From positions 558,001-622,000 of the forward strand of contig NC_009091.1 of NCBI RefSeq assembly GCF_000015965.1: DNA of 64,000 nucleotides, read 5' to 3'. Positions 49,773-57,583 of the stretch are shown here, in pieces; position 1 is the stretch's first letter; every line of letters starts with the position of its first letter. The notes under the pieces are model-generated. The model was given only the letters and a program-made list of their open reading frames with translations, had not been told where the DNA came from and did no database searches. This DNA comes from Prochlorococcus marinus str. MIT 9301 (lineage in GTDB: Bacteria > Cyanobacteriota > Cyanobacteriia > PCC-6307 > Cyanobiaceae). The translations under genes and the position numbers were made by a program.

Positions 49773-49789
49773 ACGGAGGGGGTGTGATT
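49773..49789 (-). repeat. Partial copy of the tRNA-Ser 3' end (att-like)
   Basis: ACGGAGGGGGTGTGATT differs at one base from the same stretch at the tRNA-Ser 3' end (52146-52162). It includes the acceptor-stem and T-arm 3' sequence and the base after the discriminator. It stands alone: the rest of the tRNA is not present here. It is strikingly GC-rich against the AT-rich background. Confidence 0.65.
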
Positions 49790-49852
49790 TTCATTCAGCC
49801 CTAATGATTGTCTATGACTGCCTATGGCGATATTTTTTGAATTAGATCAACT

Positions 49853-49876
49853 AAATCCCCCAGTAAATCCCCCAGT
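49853..49876. repeat. Tandem 12-bp repeats, left border
   Basis: AAATCCCCCAGT occurs twice head to tail (49853-49864 and 49865-49876). The same unit recurs near the right border of the insertion, in the same orientation. It lies just beyond the stop of the last cassette gene (49915). On the minus strand the unit would read Thr-Gly-Gly-Phe if translated, but no open frame uses it here. Confidence 0.75.
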
Positions 49877-49914
49877 AGATTTTCCCTTTATTTTTGAAAG
49901 ATTTAAGCGTTTCA

Positions 49915-50430
49915 TTAGTATCCAAATACATCATCACATTTATTTTTTGGGAGATCAAAATGATGAGTGTGCCAAAACTTTTTAATTTTAACTTCAAAAG
50001 AATCAGTATTTTTAATGATCTTATTTCTTTTTAGTTTCTTTGTAATTTCCTTCAAGAGAACAAGCATTCTTGTTTCTGTTTCTTCCCTTGTTAATGGATC
50101 TCTGTATATAGAGGCTCTTATATTCTTTTTCTTTAACAAAAATTCATTGCAGTACTTAGTGTAAAGTTTTGATCTTTTTTTTGAGATTGAGTCTTTAATT
50201 CTCTTCTCTTCATTTTCAAGTCTTATCTTTTTCTCTTTTTTTTCTCGTTGGACCTTTCTTTCTTTTAGGCAAGCTTTATATGATAGCTTTGCACTAAATT
50301 CATTTCTTTCAAAAGAAGCTACATCTCTACAATATTTCTTATCTTCCTCATATGCCCCCCAGGCGAATAAATTAATAGGAAAAAGAGCCTGCATTGTTAA
50401 AAGGGTAATGACTAATAAATTTATCCGCAT
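49915..50430 (-). CDS. Secreted Lys-rich protein, unknown function (cassette gene 4)
   Basis: This 171-residue protein has a signal peptide (about residues 1-24, ending PINLFAWGA). A strongly basic, helical middle follows (RKVQREKKEKKIRLENEEKR). Cysteines lie near residues 34, 54, 103 and 165. I do not recognise a family. Its start overlaps the end of the preceding gene by ten bases. It is the last gene of the four-gene unit inside the tRNA-flanked insertion. Confidence 0.6.
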   Translation of the reverse strand: MRINLLVITLLTMQALFPINLFAWGAYEEDKKYCRDVASFERNEFSAKLSYKACLKERKVQREKKEKKIRLENEEKRIKDSISKKRSKLYTKYCNEFLLKKKNIRASIYRDPLTREETETRMLVLLKEITKKLKRNKIIKNTDSFEVKIKKFWHTHHFDLPKNKCDDVFGY

Positions 50431-50804
50431 TGCTTATCTTCTCCAGTTATGCAGTATCTTTTTGACTCACTATTCAGACGTTGTTGACAGGCAATTGTCA
50501 TTAATGGCTTAACTGTTCCTTGCCCAAAGAATTTGTTTTGATAGTGATAACAAATACTCCCTCTTGCTTTTCTCCATTCTTCCCAAAGTTGGTCATTATT
50601 TAATTCTTTTTTTAATTCCCAATCTGACTTTAGTAATCTCTCTACCTCACATCTTGTATATTCTGGAGTGGATCCAGTCTCTACACATTCAAATGGATAG
50701 TTTTCAAAGTAACTTTCTTTCCACCTTTCAAAATCTTTATCCTCAGCATTTACCTCTATAGGTAAAGCGAAAGCAGCTAGCAGTGAGAGTAGTAAGTATT
50801 TCAT
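50421..50804 (-). CDS. Secreted Cys-rich protein, unknown function (cassette gene 3)
   Basis: This 127-residue protein has a signal peptide (about residues 1-20, cleavage near EVNAED). The mature part has six cysteines, in YPFECVETGSTPEYTRCE, GSICYHYQNKFFG, MTIACQQRLN and SKRYCITGEDKQCG, suggesting several disulfides. The family is not recognised. It abuts the preceding gene (one-base overlap) and overlaps the next by ten bases. Confidence 0.6.
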   Translation of the reverse strand: MKYLLLSLLAAFALPIEVNAEDKDFERWKESYFENYPFECVETGSTPEYTRCEVERLLKSDWELKKELNNDQLWEEWRKARGSICYHYQNKFFGQGTVKPLMTIACQQRLNSESKRYCITGEDKQCG

Positions 50805-51400
50805 TAATTACATCTAGGTTTATTCTTCCATACAGGAGAATCACAATTTATATTTCCTTTCTTTCCTTTTTTTGTGGATTCTAAAGACCAATCTTCTATT
50901 AGATCGTTATCGTAAGGATTTAGATTTTTGTCTCTACCGTGAGTATCTTGTGGACCTTGGCTGTTTGGGAAACGGTAATTAGGTATAGGCTTTGCATCTT
51001 GTGACTTAAAACGAACAATTGCTTTTCCAAAATCTCTACCTGCTTTTTTATTTGAAAAAAGGAAAAGAGCAATTTTCTCATTATTATTAGATGAAAGATA
51101 TCTTATGTAGTAATAATATTCTGCGGGCTGAGAACTCCAACCTGCATAACCTTCTGTCTCTCTTCTTACCGATATGAATTGGGATCTATCTATTCCTCCT
51201 TGTCCTTCTACCCACATTGAGCGACCCTGAAATCTTACGCGGCATTTATTTTTTATTTGTCGACACCAAGCATCGTGATAACTTTTTGGTCCACCAGACT
51301 CTATATCCTCTCTAAAGTCTGCATCTCCAAAATCAGATTTTACTGGAAGCACTATTGAGCTAGATACTAATAATAATAATAAAATAGATTTTTTAATCAT
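50804..51400 (-). CDS. Secreted protein, unknown function (cassette gene 2)
   Basis: This 198-residue protein has a signal peptide (about residues 1-22, ending VKSDFG). The mature part contains DAWCRQIKNKCRVRFQGRSM, GQGGIDRSQFISVRRE and an aromatic AEYYYYIRYLSS, reading as a beta-rich extracellular domain. Four cysteines occur, two early and two at the C-terminus (NCDSP and the final RCN). I have the impression that such proteins recur in marine picocyanobacteria, but no name is known. It overlaps its upstream neighbour by four bases. Confidence 0.62.
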   Translation of the reverse strand: MIKKSILLLLLVSSSIVLPVKSDFGDADFREDIESGGPKSYHDAWCRQIKNKCRVRFQGRSMWVEGQGGIDRSQFISVRRETEGYAGWSSQPAEYYYYIRYLSSNNNEKIALFLFSNKKAGRDFGKAIVRFKSQDAKPIPNYRFPNSQGPQDTHGRDKNLNPYDNDLIEDWSLESTKKGKKGNINCDSPVWKNKPRCN

Positions 51401-51897
51401 CTTGCATCAATACACATCGTAAAGAAAAAACGATTTCTACCTGCAAAGCCATCACTAGACTCAAGTTCTAATTCTGCTTCTTGGCATCTTTCCATACTTT
51501 TAAAAGGTATTTTATGAATTGCATTACCTCCCTGACTGACGCTGGATCGCATTACGAGCCATATATTTGCATCTGAATTAATTGAAGAATCTAAGGTTTT
51601 CAAAGCTTCTTCCCTTGCATTTTTTAAATCAATTAAAGCGTTATCTTTATTAGCTTTTAATTCATTTATGCTACCTAATCTTAACGAGTCTAATTCTTTC
51701 AAAAGGTCAGATTTTGTTGATTTGATTTCGTTTAAAGTTTCTTTTCTTTCTTTTTTTAATTCGATTAATGTCTTGGATATTTCAGACTCTGCATCAGTTT
51801 GTTTTTTAAGAGTACTCCAAACTTGACTTGATGCTAAAACAACAATTCCCAAAGTTCCAATGACAGAAAGAGCCTTGTAAAAAAAATTATTTGACAT
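51397..51897 (-). CDS. Membrane-anchored coiled-coil protein (cassette gene 1)
   Basis: The protein (166 residues from the ATG at 51897, 176 from an ATG at 51927) has one N-terminal membrane segment (ALSVIGTLGIVVLASS). A long charged coiled coil follows (about residues 30-100), in which LKELDSLRLGSINELKANKD is typical. The C-terminal 55 residues form a compact domain with WLVMRSSVSQGG and a closing RCQEAELELES...FTMCIDAR. I do not recognise the family. It is the first gene of the four-gene unit. Confidence 0.6.
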   Translation of the reverse strand: MSNNFFYKALSVIGTLGIVVLASSQVWSTLKKQTDAESEISKTLIELKKERKETLNEIKSTKSDLLKELDSLRLGSINELKANKDNALIDLKNAREEALKTLDSSINSDANIWLVMRSSVSQGGNAIHKIPFKSMERCQEAELELESSDGFAGRNRFFFTMCIDAR

Positions 51898-51955
51898 TAG
51901 ATCTATAAAAAGACGCTTATTGCCCATATCTTAGTTCGACCTTAAGATCGAATTC

Positions 51956-52000
51956 AATCCCCCAGTAATTTTTAACAAATCCCACAGTAAATCCCCCAGT
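51956..52000. repeat. 12-bp repeats, right border
   Basis: Three copies of the left-border unit lie here: AATCCCCCAGT (51956-51966, eleven bases), AAATCCCACAGT (51977-51988, one mismatch) and AAATCCCCCAGT (51989-52000, perfect). The short words AATGATTG and TCTATGAC also occur next to both repeat clusters, though in different spacing. They lie upstream of the first cassette gene. Confidence 0.75.
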
Positions 52001-52146
52001 AAATGATTGACTCTATCTGATTGTTTATGGAGGTCTATGACAAGGCTAAGTTTCTATAATCTTTTAAATTTGGCTTTATATCTAGGTTTAAAATAATTCT
52101 GTCTGCCTGTGGTGGAATATGACACCCTATGCAGGTTTTCTAAATA

Positions 52147-52233
52147 CGGAGGGGGTGGGATTCGAACCCACGGTGCCCTTGCAGACACGCTAGTTTTCAA
52201 GACTAGAGCCTTAAACCACTCGACCACCCCTCC
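52147..52233 (-). tRNA. tRNA-Ser (UGA)
   Basis: Reading the minus strand, GGAGGGG at the 5' end pairs with CCCCTCC at the 3' end, followed by a G discriminator; CCA is not encoded. The anticodon arm CTAGTCTTGAAAACTAG has anticodon TGA. A long variable arm follows (class II, as expected for Ser), then the T-arm GTGGGTTCGAATCCCAC. Total length is 87 bases. It is the right border of the putative integrative element. Confidence 0.95.
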
Positions 52234-52595
52234 AGGCAAAAATATTTAAATTTTGACTTTTTAATTATATCAAAAGAAGGTTGAATTTCTGGAAAAACAT
52301 GAACTCATTCTTGTTATAAAAATCTTCAAAAATTTTAATAATTTGGATTTTATTAGTTGTTTGATTTTTTAGGCAACTTTAAAAATAAAAAAAGTTTGAT
52401 ATTGATTAATTGCCTATGAAGTAAAAACCAAAATGATCGTGTCACATAATCATTTTTTTATTGGCAATTAATTAACAAAATTGGCAACAAAACTAAAACA
52501 TCAGTTGAGACATTAATTTGTTATTTACAAATAAAAATAGTAGAATTTTTTGAGTTTATTTCTAAAGCTTTCAGCTTCACTATAAGGATTATCAA
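52234..52595. promoter_or_regulatory. AT-rich gap upstream of the prepilin peptidase gene
   Basis: No gene is seen in these 362 bases. They hold TAGGCAA (52370-52376) and its inverse TTGCCTA (52410-52416), and two direct TTGGCAA words at 52461 and 52481, exactly 20 bases apart (about two helical turns). These could be regulator sites for pilD or for the tRNA. This is inference from spacing only. Confidence 0.35.
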
Positions 52596-53399
52596 GTGGA
52601 AATAATATTGATATATTTGTTTGTAATTGGTTGTTGTATAGGAAGCTTTGTAAATGTAGTAATTTATAGATTACCTTTAAATCAATCAATAGTTTATCCC
52701 AATAGTAGATGTCCGAAATGTAATTCAAGAATTAAATGGTTTGATAATATACCAATAATAAGTTGGCTTTTATTAAGAGGTAAATGCAGAGCTTGTAAGA
52801 ATAAAATAGCTTTTTTTTACCCTAGTATTGAATTATTTATAGGCATTTTATTTTGTCTTAATCTATACTCTCAGCCAACAATTTATAGTCAACAACCTAC
52901 AAATTTAATTATATTTTTGGGATGTATTTTTAGTGTAATTTTATTTACCTTAGCAATATTAGATTTTAAATATTTTTGGCTTCCGCAAGTTCTTACTTCA
53001 GGAGGTTTTGTTTCAGGAATAATTACCTCTTTATATATTGATCTTAGCAATGATCTCTATCAATTTAATTATGTAATTTATACATTACTTGCTTCTTTAT
53101 TAGGTTTTACATTTTTTAATTTATTAAGTCGTATAGGTAAAAAAATTTATAATAAACCCGTAATTGGAGGAGGGGATGCGAAACTAGGTGCCATGATTGG
53201 TTCTTGGTTAGGTATACAGGGATTATTTATATCTATATGGTTAGCATTTATATCGGCTGGTATTTTTGTGATTGTAGGTTTAATTTTTAAAAAAATAAAA
53301 AGGAATCAAAAAATACCTTTTGGGATTTTTTTAGCTTTGTCTGGATTGCTTGTTTGGTACTTTGGCAATGAGATATTTTTAGATATATTATTTTTATAA
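52596..53399 (+). CDS. pilD: Prepilin peptidase (A24 family, PilD-like)
   Basis: PilD cleaves the leader of type IV prepilins and methylates the new N-terminus. The 267-residue membrane protein has the N-terminal methylase domain with two CxxC pairs (CPKCNSRIKWFDNIPIISWL and CRACK). The catalytic aspartates are in LDFKYFWLP and in GGGDAKLGAMIGSWLG, the GxGDxKL motif, near residue 190. About seven hydrophobic segments are present. The start is GTG at 52596. It converges on pilC. Confidence 0.93.
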   Translation: MEIILIYLFVIGCCIGSFVNVVIYRLPLNQSIVYPNSRCPKCNSRIKWFDNIPIISWLLLRGKCRACKNKIAFFYPSIELFIGILFCLNLYSQPTIYSQQPTNLIIFLGCIFSVILFTLAILDFKYFWLPQVLTSGGFVSGIITSLYIDLSNDLYQFNYVIYTLLASLLGFTFFNLLSRIGKKIYNKPVIGGGDAKLGAMIGSWLGIQGLFISIWLAFISAGIFVIVGLIFKKIKRNQKIPFGIFLALSGLLVWYFGNEIFLDILFL

Positions 53400-53412
53400 A
53401 TTATACAAGGAT

Positions 53413-54774
53413 TTACCCCACAGTAGACATCATACTGAACATAGGTAAATACATAGCAATTAGAATGATTCCTACAAAAACAGCTACGAATATAATCATT
53501 AAAGGTTCCATTATTGAAGTTAAGCTTTTGACGCTTGAAGAGACTTCATCTTCATAAAAATCAGCTAGTTTTGTAATCATTTCACTTAGCTCACCTGTCT
53601 CTTCTCCTATCCTAAACATTGATGTAAACATTACTGGAATTACGGACTCTTTATCAAAAGCTTTGTGCATGGGATTACCTGCTTGGATATCGTAATAAGC
53701 ATTTTCTATGATCCTGGTAAAAATCCTATTTTTCAAAGTTTTCTTAGCGATTGTTAAAGACTCTAAAATTGGAACCCCTGCACTATTTAATGAAGATAAG
53801 GTTCTTGAAAAATTTGCTAAACATGATTTTGTTACTAAGTCTTTTGTGATAGGTAATTGGAGAAGAGTTTTGTCATACCACCAAATAACTGAAGATCTAC
53901 TTGATAAATATTTATAAAAAAGATAAATAGCAAACCCAGATGGAACTGCTTTGAAATAAAATTCAATTGTTCTTAGTTGATCTGATAAGTTAATTAAAAA
54001 TTGAGTAATCCCAGGCAATGGGGCCCCTGATTGATCATAAATATCTACAAAAATTGGAATAACAAAAAGCATCATTATAAAAACTATTACTACTGTAAGT
54101 ATCGCTATAGCTGAAGGATATGCTAAAGCGCTTTTTATCTGACCCTTGATTTTTGCAAGACTTTCTAATAATTTTGCTTGGCGATCTAAAGTGTTTGGCA
54201 ATAATCCAGCAGTTTCTCCGGCGCTTACAAGCGCTCGATACATTTCATTAAATACTTCTGGATATTTATCTAACATTTCAGACATGGTGGAACCTTTGCT
54301 TATGCCTGAGGCTATCTCTTTAAATGAGTATCTTATGGATATATTTTCAGATGTATCTGCAATTATGTTTAGGGATTCTAATAAAGGTAACCCTGTTCTA
54401 ATCATCGAAGAAAGCTGTTTTGTTGCAACTGCTAAATCTTTTATTGGAGGACTTTTTAATTTTCTTCCCTCCATTAACCTTGGCTTTAATATCTTTTTTT
54501 TATTTCTTAGTGAAGTCATGTCACCCTCGATAAATTCTTTTCTTTCTTGTATTTTCAATTCGACGTAAGTTTTCAAAATTGAAAGTTTATTTTTTTCTTT
54601 TTTTCTTAAATTTTGATTTTTTGCAGGTATAGGTATAACGTTTTTATATTTTTGAGTGATTCTCGCGTTTTTATGTTCTGGAATTCTATTTGGATTATTA
54701 AGCACTTTTCTTTTATGCCTAGCTTTTTGCATAAGCCTTCTTAATTTTGCGTTTTCGATGTATCTATAATCCAC
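53413..54774 (-). CDS. pilC: Type IV pilus inner-membrane platform protein PilC
   Basis: PilC is the platform on which the PilB and PilT motors act. The 453-residue protein has a basic N-terminal extension of about 115 residues, then two T2SS-F domains with paired motifs KEIASGISKGSTMSEMLDKY and AYYDIQAGNPMHKAF. A membrane segment follows each domain (AILTVVIVFIMMLFVIPIFV and a final IIFVAVFVGIILIAMYLPMF). It lies 32 bases downstream of pilT. The N-terminal extension is longer and more charged than usual. Confidence 0.92.
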   Translation of the reverse strand: MDYRYIENAKLRRLMQKARHKRKVLNNPNRIPEHKNARITQKYKNVIPIPAKNQNLRKKEKNKLSILKTYVELKIQERKEFIEGDMTSLRNKKKILKPRLMEGRKLKSPPIKDLAVATKQLSSMIRTGLPLLESLNIIADTSENISIRYSFKEIASGISKGSTMSEMLDKYPEVFNEMYRALVSAGETAGLLPNTLDRQAKLLESLAKIKGQIKSALAYPSAIAILTVVIVFIMMLFVIPIFVDIYDQSGAPLPGITQFLINLSDQLRTIEFYFKAVPSGFAIYLFYKYLSSRSSVIWWYDKTLLQLPITKDLVTKSCLANFSRTLSSLNSAGVPILESLTIAKKTLKNRIFTRIIENAYYDIQAGNPMHKAFDKESVIPVMFTSMFRIGEETGELSEMITKLADFYEDEVSSSVKSLTSIMEPLMIIFVAVFVGIILIAMYLPMFSMMSTVG

Positions 54775-54806
54775 AATTATTTTGTAGTATTTAAGTTCAT
54801 ATCAAT

Positions 54807-55880
54807 TTATGTTGGCATCTCAGAATTAATTTCTTCAAGCAAACCTTTCAAAACATTTGGCCTATTACATTTATATAAGGCTTCGTCAGTGGTAATTGCA
54901 CTTTTAGATACAAGTTCAGATAAACATTGTTCTAAAGTTTGCATTCCAAATTTTCCTCCTATTTGTAGTTGAGAATAAACTTGCGATGCTTTTGCTTCCC
55001 TAATTAAATTAGCAATAGCATTATTGTTAACTAATATTTCTGCTGCTAGGCATCTTTTATTATCAATAGTTTTACATAATGTTTGCGAAATTACACCAAT
55101 TAAAGATGAAGATAGTTGAACTCTAATTTGCATTTGCTGAGATGTTGGGAAGACATCAATTATTCTGTCTATTGTTTGAGAGGCTGATGCCGTGTGTAAA
55201 GTCCCTAATACTAAATGGCCAGTTTCTGCTGCAGTAATGGCTAAGCTTATTGTCTCCAGATCCCTCATTTCACCAACTAATATAATATCAGGATCTTCTC
55301 TTAGTGCTGACCTTAATGCATTTGAAAAGGAAATAGTATCTTCTCCAACTTCTCTTTGTCTTACTAAACAATTTTTATTGTTATAGATGAATTCAATTGG
55401 GTCTTCAATAGTTAATATGTGGTGTGCAAAATTTGTATTAATCCAGTCAATCCCACTTGCTAGTGTCGTCGTTTTCCCAGATCCAGTTGGACCAGTTACA
55501 AGCATTAAACCTCTTGGTCTACTTAAAAGTTGTTGAACACTATCAGGGAGACCTATTTTTGAAAAACTTGGAATTTCAGTATTGAGTGCTCTCATAACAC
55601 ATGAAATCTTACCCCTGTCTATAAATATGTTCATCCTAAATCTCGCAATCCCCTCTAAGCCATAACTACAATCGAGTTCTTTTTCCTTATCAAATTTTGC
55701 AAGCTTTTCATTGCCTAAAATTTGAGTAAGATCTGCTCTCAATTCTTTACTTGTATATTGTTCGCTTGATGCTGGTAAAATTTGTCCTTGAATTCTAAAA
55801 AAAGGATAGCTGTCTCCTGTTAAATGCAGGTCAGAACCATTTCTTTTTACTAACTCTGACATGAGATTAGTTAATTTCAT
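54807..55880 (-). CDS. pilT: Type IV pilus retraction ATPase PilT
   Basis: PilT depolymerises the pilus and powers retraction, twitching and DNA uptake. The 357-residue protein has the Walker A motif VTGPTGSGKTTTLAS near residue 130, the Asp box, and Walker B in DIILVGEMRDLETISLAI near residue 205. The His box is GHLVLGTLHTASASQTIDRI. Length is normal. Its start overlaps pilB's stop by four bases; the order pilB-pilT-pilC is the usual one in cyanobacteria. Confidence 0.94.
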   Translation of the reverse strand: MKLTNLMSELVKRNGSDLHLTGDSYPFFRIQGQILPASSEQYTSKELRADLTQILGNEKLAKFDKEKELDCSYGLEGIARFRMNIFIDRGKISCVMRALNTEIPSFSKIGLPDSVQQLLSRPRGLMLVTGPTGSGKTTTLASGIDWINTNFAHHILTIEDPIEFIYNNKNCLVRQREVGEDTISFSNALRSALREDPDIILVGEMRDLETISLAITAAETGHLVLGTLHTASASQTIDRIIDVFPTSQQMQIRVQLSSSLIGVISQTLCKTIDNKRCLAAEILVNNNAIANLIREAKASQVYSQLQIGGKFGMQTLEQCLSELVSKSAITTDEALYKCNRPNVLKGLLEEINSEMPT

Positions 55881-57583
55881 AATTCTTCAGATTGAGTGTC
55901 ATTGAGTAAGCAAACACGTTCAACTTCTTCAATTGTAGTAAGTTCATTTCTTACTAAATCCATACCATATTTTAGTAAACTTCTTCCATTTTTTTCAAAA
56001 GCACGTTCTCTTATTTGATCTGCATTGGATTGCTTCATTATTAAATCTCTAATCGAGTCATTAACTTTCATTACTTCATAGATACCAACTCTTCCTTTAT
56101 AGCCACTTCCGTTGCATACGGGGCAGCCTTTATTTGTTTTGTTTAAGAATCTTGCTTTTTCTACTCCTAAAGAAAATGCTAAATGATTTTCATGTGCGTT
56201 TATTTTTTTTAATTCACTACAAGATTTGCAAACTTTTCTAACTAATCTTTGAGCAACAACTCCTATGATTGAGGCCCCAATAAGATAAGGTGGGATTTCC
56301 ATTTCAGCAAGTCTTGTAATTGCTGTTGCAGTATCATTAGCATGCAACGTTGTGAAAACCATGTGACCAGTTAATGCCGCTTCCATTGCGGCTTGAGCTG
56401 TTTCTTTATCTCTAGTTTCTCCCACTAAAATAATATCTGGGTCTTGCCTCATTAAAGACCTTAAAGCTCTCGAAAAATCAAGTCCCTTTTCTCTAATTAC
56501 TTGAACTTGATGAATGCCATCAAGTGTATATTCTACTGGGTCTTCAACCGTACTTATATTTACTCCTGGTTTATTAAGGTCACTCAACATAGAATATAAA
56601 GTTGTTGATTTGCCGCTACCGGTCGGTCCAACTACAATCACAATTCCATATGGAGATTTAGACATATTTTTTATTAAACTTAATTCATCATTTTCTGTAA
56701 TTAATTTTGAAAGGTTAAGTACAGAATTATCACTCTCAAGTGCCCTAAGCACAACTTTTTCTCCCCATCTTCCAGGCAATGTGCTTACTCTAAAGTCAGA
56801 TCTTCTTCCTCTTAACAGACATCTTATTCTCCCATCTTGGGGTAACCTTTTTTCAGATATATCTAGCTTACTCATTATCTTAATCCTACTAATTATTGGG
56901 TTTACATGTGATTTTGGAAACGCAAAAGCCTCTTTTAAAACTCCATCAATTCTATATCTTATCCTTAAGCGATCCTCTAAAGGTTCTGCATGAATATCTG
57001 ATCCCTTTAATGTGAAACATTTACTTAAAATTGAGGCTACACCGGCAATTACGGGATCATTAGATGCAGTAAGTTCTTCCCCAAATAAAATATCATTATC
57101 CATTTCTGAATCGTCACCAATATTTGCCTGAGCCAACTTAATAAGTGCTTCATCATTAGCATCATCAATTAGTTCTATGTCCTCATTAATAGAGGATTCA
57201 TTTGAGTTTTGAATATTGTATTGAATACTCTCTGTGTTTGACTCTTCAAAATAATTGATATATTCATCATTAAGTACATTTTCTTCTACATCATTAATTT
57301 TTTCTAAAGTTTGATTTTGATTTGAACTTTTTTGAATTTTTTCAACTGATGTGTCATGATTATTCTCAAACCAAGTTTCCCATTCTAAAGATGTAATTTG
57401 TTTTAAGGAAACTTTTAAATTATATTCACTTTCAATAGTTTTGATAACTTTTTTTACTTTAATATAATCTAAATTCATTGCTCCTAAATCTAAAGTTTCC
57501 TCGCCAATTTCAATAACTATTATCCCTGCATCTTCACATAATTCAGGCGTGAGAAATTTACTTATTTCATTAGTATCAATCAT
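55877..57583 (-). CDS. pilB: Type IV pilus extension ATPase PilB
   Basis: PilB hydrolyses ATP to extend the pilus. The 568-residue protein has Walker A in VGPTGSGKSTTLYSML (about residue 320) and Walker B in DIILVGETRDKETAQAAMEA. The tetracysteine metal site is in CKSCSELKK and CPVCNGSGYKGRVGIYEV near residues 455-500. The N-terminal 150 residues are acidic and asparagine-rich and fit the domain that contacts PilM or the platform only loosely. It is the first gene of pilB-pilT-pilC and is divergent from the PilP-like gene. Confidence 0.94.
   Translation of the reverse strand: MIDTNEISKFLTPELCEDAGIIVIEIGEETLDLGAMNLDYIKVKKVIKTIESEYNLKVSLKQITSLEWETWFENNHDTSVEKIQKSSNQNQTLEKINDVEENVLNDEYINYFEESNTESIQYNIQNSNESSINEDIELIDDANDEALIKLAQANIGDDSEMDNDILFGEELTASNDPVIAGVASILSKCFTLKGSDIHAEPLEDRLRIRYRIDGVLKEAFAFPKSHVNPIISRIKIMSKLDISEKRLPQDGRIRCLLRGRRSDFRVSTLPGRWGEKVVLRALESDNSVLNLSKLITENDELSLIKNMSKSPYGIVIVVGPTGSGKSTTLYSMLSDLNKPGVNISTVEDPVEYTLDGIHQVQVIREKGLDFSRALRSLMRQDPDIILVGETRDKETAQAAMEAALTGHMVFTTLHANDTATAITRLAEMEIPPYLIGASIIGVVAQRLVRKVCKSCSELKKINAHENHLAFSLGVEKARFLNKTNKGCPVCNGSGYKGRVGIYEVMKVNDSIRDLIMKQSNADQIRERAFEKNGRSLLKYGMDLVRNELTTIEEVERVCLLNDTQSEEL

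Follow-up and report, generated by a model that had tools for sequence, protein, structure and literature searches.

The interval at positions 49773–52157 of the window (the 64,000-nucleotide stretch of the Prochlorococcus marinus str. MIT 9301 genome analysed here, NC_009091.1, positions 558,001 to 622,000) is very probably a non-autonomous element that resembles cis-mobilizable elements (CIMEs) and was formed or mobilised through the action of a lambda-type integrase encoded elsewhere. In the best reading of the data, it is one of many elements stacked at tRNA genes in Prochlorococcus. Its insertion through site-specific recombination is well supported, with direct support coming from a duplicated core, empty sites in relatives, conserved ends with exchangeable cargo, and a matching layout in integrase-bearing elements.

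An earlier note on this DNA had described a 17-base copy of a tRNA-Ser 3′ end, located 2,373 bases from the intact tRNA and in the same orientation. Sequence comparison and ARAGORN analysis confirmed this arrangement: positions 49773–49789 (ACGGAGGGGGTGTGATT) and 52146–52162 (ACGGAGGGGGTGGGATT) are identical at 16 of 17 bases. Directly repeated tRNA 3′-end sequence bounds an element of approximately 2.4 kb (2.37 kb) on both sides, with the tRNA left whole, as is characteristic of integrative elements. At the distal core, the chromosome lies to the left and the element to the right (attR orientation). The limits were assigned as follows.

49773–49784, plus strand: distal core (attR) ACGGAGGGGGTG, a copy of the tRNA-Ser 3′ end (repeat match, empty-site alignment).
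49773–49885, no strand assigned: distal element end with core, TATGAC-containing spacer and arm repeats (conserved in seven genomes).
51950–52146, no strand assigned: proximal element end with arm repeats and spacer (conserved in seven genomes).
52146–52157, plus strand: proximal core (attL), inside the tRNA 3′ end (ARAGORN, repeat match).
52146–52234, minus strand: tRNA-Ser(TGA), the integration target, intact (ARAGORN).

The 12-bp core occurs twice in the window, compared with a mean of 0.03 occurrences after shuffling (one mismatch allowed), and no shuffle contained two. The extended motif CGGAGGGGGTG[N]GATT is found exactly only at the two core sites in the whole genome (1.64 Mb); a third site has one mismatch. 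That a GC-rich 17-mer recurred here by chance, which the earlier note had considered unlikely, is a negligible prospect in view of the shuffle expectation, and it is refuted by the empty sites of other genomes, which end exactly at the core.

These empty sites emerged from a comparison of the window with 47 loci from other genomes, a non-random sample because the loci had been picked for a repeat or core match. In 13 genomes, the distance from the flank gene to the tRNA was 325–366 bp versus 2715 bp in the window, and the distance predicted for an empty site was 342 bp (2715 less 2373 bp). When joined, the two flanks of the window aligned with all 13 empty sites through the predicted core junction. 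Thus, the comparison with close genomes that the earlier note had proposed as a check yielded the empty site and supported its claim of site-specific integration at the tRNA. The 17-bp copy also proved to be an edge of synteny, with the left flank conserved as far as the copy and variable sequence past it. Neither element end nor the interior had a match in the four empty-site genomes compared.

The strongest evidence for the element, unreported by the earlier note, is a 12-bp repeat, AATCCC[C/A]CAGTA, located just inside both ends. Five copies were detected by the repeat scan.

49854–49865, plus strand: putative arm-type repeat AATCCCCCAGTA.
49866–49877, plus strand: putative arm-type repeat AATCCCCCAGTA.
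51956–51967, plus strand: putative arm-type repeat AATCCCCCAGTA.
51978–51989, plus strand: putative arm-type repeat AATCCCACAGTA.
51990–52001, plus strand: putative arm-type repeat AATCCCCCAGTA.

The exact AATCCCCCAGTA 12-mer is present in four copies in the whole 1.64-Mb genome, every one of them in this interval. Measured from the core, the distal repeats begin at 80 bp; a proximal pair occupies the stretch 145–168 bp from the tRNA. Such repeats inside both ends are a hallmark of integrative elements, and their layout is that of the integrase-bearing elements described below. No tandem repeats of the arm type were detected on the 5′ side of tRNA-Ser(TGA) in the window scan. With simple scripts and no formal null per locus, and with many of the compared genomes incomplete, a search of 265 genomes at ≤3 mismatches detected the doubled repeat in 11. 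In eight of these 11, including the one studied here, it has tRNA-Ser(TGA) on one side and the conserved left-flank gene on the other; in two others (G134 and G242) it adjoins tRNA-Ser(TGA), and in G052, where the contig stops short of the tRNA, it adjoins the left-flank genes.

Both element ends are conserved in at least seven other Prochlorococcus genomes (G041, G118, G161, G069, G090, G005, and G137), with 79–97% identity over 92–111 bp at the distal and 81–91% over 168–198 bp at the proximal end. The 2064-bp interior of the window element had no match in any of these seven, and the same ends at this tRNA enclose different or no cargo in the relatives. In G161 the cargo includes one protein with a match to PDC-S57, a set of PADLOC models for candidate defence, along with a NOV_C/DUF3427 protein, and in G069 and G137 both ends overlap on one repeat pair to give gene-free forms of ~245–249 bp. 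Further repeat units were found at tRNA-Ser(TGA), among them ATTTCCCCTACC, AATCTGCCAACA, TTCACCCAACA, TTCCCCCAACA, TCCCAAACACA, and CACACACGAAA. Type I restriction-modification genes belong to the cargo that TTCACCCAACA repeats enclose in G137, and type III genes to that in G181. Tandem stacking of elements was seen at tRNA-Ser(TGA) loci, and several loci contain at least two core copies, which matches the expectation for stacked insertions. At loci L045, L046, L048–L057, and L059, the tRNA copy extends to the anticodon, suggesting a second element class at the same gene.

Homologous recombination, as might follow DNA uptake, could also account for cargo exchange between conserved ends, with no site-specific event each time; the flanks and ends are conserved enough to act as homology. 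Taken alone, this process is an improbable explanation, because it accounts neither for the duplicated core and the clean empty sites nor for stacked elements of different families that each end at a core copy. A further reading is that the interval is a dead remnant of an autonomous element from which a deletion removed the integrase; the remnant would since have passed down vertically, and some strains would have lost it. An element without integrase in a genome without a related one would fit this reading, and the cargo-less ~245-bp forms indicate that deletion between the ends does occur. We nevertheless regard it as rather unlikely: deletion from one ancestor cannot yield unrelated cargo between the same ends, the cores and arm repeats as well as all four cargo ORFs are intact, and the cargo is far more diverged from its homolog in G052 than the flanks are.

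The earlier note had counted four cargo genes and no recombinase, and the interval indeed contains four minus-strand ORFs of 171, 127, 198, and 176 amino acids. No recombinase is among the four ORFs of 49773–52233, and the element thus differs from an autonomous form with a self-encoded integrase; retained att sites with the recombination genes gone are what defines a CIME.

49915–50430, minus strand: cargo ORF of 171 amino acids, signal peptide by eye, no family match.
50421–50804, minus strand: cargo ORF of 127 amino acids with the leader MKYLLLSLLAAFALPIEVNAE.
50804–51400, minus strand: cargo ORF c198 (198 amino acids), predicted to be secreted (leader), with the C-terminal tag INCDSPVWKNKPRCN.
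51397–51927, minus strand: cargo ORF c176 (176 amino acids), N-terminal transmembrane segment and coiled coil by eye; homologs start at the ATG at 51897.

None of the four products matched a Pfam, PHROG, NCBIfam, or PADLOC family. The leader of the 127-aa ORF resembles the leader MKRLLLPLLAALALPTAVNAE of other cargo at this site. Homologs of c198 with 57–85% identity are encoded in other genomes, where c176 adjoins c198 as well; no c198 homolog was found in phages. A predicted structure of c198 gave PH/PTB-like matches, which were set aside for function owing to low confidence (pLDDT 57). A search for the cargo alongside a tyrosine recombinase, as the earlier note had suggested, located a c198 homolog in G050, within a tRNA-Asn element that has an integrase and repeats of its own. 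Different repeats, TTTTGGGCAC, enclose both c198 and c176 in G052. Between the window and G052, dS was 0.7–1.15 for the cargo versus 0.185 for a flanking gene; thus, the cargo was not inherited along with the flanks. The corresponding cargo dN/dS values of 0.08–0.18 indicate that the genes are under purifying selection.

A tag close to INCDSPVWKNKPRCN forms the C-terminus of 17 distinct proteins in the fetched loci; carriers are the product of 50804–51400 in the window and proteins at L147, L175, L183, and L188–L191. Several of these proteins are otherwise dissimilar, and most start with a signal-peptide-like leader. The tag may be a sorting signal.

Candidate sources of the recombinase activity were found in autonomous relatives. 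At tRNA-Ser(TGA), G050 harbors a 6.1-kb element that shares the core of the window element, has TCCCAAACACA as its repeats, and encodes a 429-aa integrase. The ends of this element also bound integrase-less elements in G171, G095, and G101, the interiors of which had no match to the G050 element. Within the genus, 22 of 266 genomes encode homologs of the 429-aa integrase; for the family, the figure at E ≤ 1e-15 was 63 of 300 genomes. Elsewhere in the genus, integrases of 430–450 amino acids sit in elements with the same layout as that of the window, and autonomous elements at tRNA-Asn and tRNA-Ser(GCT, CGA) have an 11–18-bp core at the tRNA 3′ end. The layout was compared in 12 stretches that contain both an integrase and a suitably placed tRNA, and an identical repeat unit was present at both ends in eight of them. 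In these elements, 80–92 bp separate the distal repeats from the core, and the proximal pair starts 134–157 bp from the tRNA.

Residues R260, K289, R363, and Y398 are conserved in 13 aligned integrases. The integrase model (pLDDT 85) has an N-terminal beta-sheet/helix domain, and its best PDB matches were full-length lambda Int; the element integrases are thus predicted to have a lambda-Int-like fold. In the lambda-integrase class, the N-terminal domain binds arm sites (PMC11963761). The autonomous relatives carry an integrase and a resolvase, and a non-systematic inspection of relatives brought up neither a relaxase nor a conjugation gene. Phage integrases were only distantly related (≤25.6% identity among the matches listed). 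No autonomous element with AATCCCCCAGTA repeats was found in the 265 genomes searched, and neither the doubled repeat nor the distal end nor the 429-aa integrase had a match in IMG/VR. The host genome encodes a single PF00589 protein (389 amino acids), which was set aside as helper because it has no significant similarity to the element integrase.

We propose that a lambda-type (heterobivalent) tyrosine integrase, encoded elsewhere, would have recombined a circular form of the element with the 12-bp core in the tRNA-Ser(TGA) 3′ end. The tRNA would have stayed intact because the element supplied the identical 12 bp. The AATCCC[C/A]CAGTA repeats at both ends would serve as arm-type sites, to which the N-terminal domain of the integrase presumably binds. 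With complete attL and attR sites including arm sites but no integrase, the element would be movable only in trans or, like a CIME, in cis after accretion. Its past movement probably occurred in trans, and it may still be mobile today with the aid of a presumed helper of the lambda type.

Beyond tRNA-Ser(TGA), we observed several pairs of tandem repeats with different units, arranged in a row with small genes between them, near tRNA-Pro(TGG) at L180, L183, and L190; these rows resemble stacked cassettes without integrases. On the 5′ side of tRNA-Ser(TGA), the window encodes a prepilin peptidase, a T2SS-F protein, and two T2SS-E-type ATPases (52596–57583). Of the 47 loci from other genomes, only two had the prepilin peptidase in this position. 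On the same side of the tRNA, G050 has tandem TTCGGAACTC repeats (L163, 2384–2519 and 10805), and G069 has a 390-aa integrase-family ORF (L038, 10038–11210). Insertions of another kind may use the 5′ side of this tRNA.

A broader and more tentative idea, which we consider possible but somewhat short of probable, is that Prochlorococcus tRNA genes hold an integron-like reservoir of small integrase-less cassettes, stacked in tandem, each framed by a separate pair of arm repeats that corresponds to one member of a diversified group of lambda-type integrases, and with cargo exchanged between families and tRNA sites. If so, the reservoir would contain secreted proteins that have a leader and a C-terminal tag in common, restriction-modification systems, and candidate defence genes. 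Few mobile-element genes have been identified in this abundant photosynthetic organism; for the turnover of its flexible genes, the present data provide att sites at the sequence level, along with arm repeats, empty sites, and integrases that are candidate helpers. Arm repeats also offer a route to integrase-less elements that are overlooked by searches for recombinase genes.

Among known systems, the earlier note had pointed to tycheposons, and the element shares with them the Prochlorococcus host, the tRNA target, and a tyrosine recombinase in autonomous relatives. Tycheposon integration has been described for seven tRNA genes. The link to tycheposons was not established: as quoted in PMC10872708, tycheposons measure 4–200 kb and carry a recombinase, whereas the window element has 2.37 kb and none, and we did not file it as a tycheposon for these two reasons. 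That it is a tycheposon or a fragment of one appears doubtful. The ICEMlSym and lambda att systems likewise have repeated arm sites flanking the core on both sides, bound there by the integrase N-terminal domain (PMC11963761); in the window element, the sites are putative and known from sequence, and the integrase is missing. MITEs and CALINs are likewise non-autonomous and depend for movement on an enzyme from another locus (PMC11389934), but they rely on transposase inverted repeats or attC sites rather than on tRNA-specific tyrosine recombination and arm sites. The nearest described kind are the CIMEs and microCIMEs of Streptococcus, cis-mobilizable elements that retain their att sites but have lost the integrase (PMC7563491). 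CIMEs originate from conjugative or mobilizable elements (PMC7563491), whereas the relatives inspected here show no recognised relaxase or conjugation gene, and several arm-repeat families share one tRNA in Prochlorococcus. In both cases, att sites are kept without an integrase, elements are stacked in tandem at one 3′ end, and decayed members lie farther from the target gene. Streptococcal CIMEs with cargo measure 1.2–13 kb and gene-free forms 130–220 bp (PMC7563491), and the latter have their counterpart in the gene-free forms of ~245–249 bp at tRNA-Ser(TGA).
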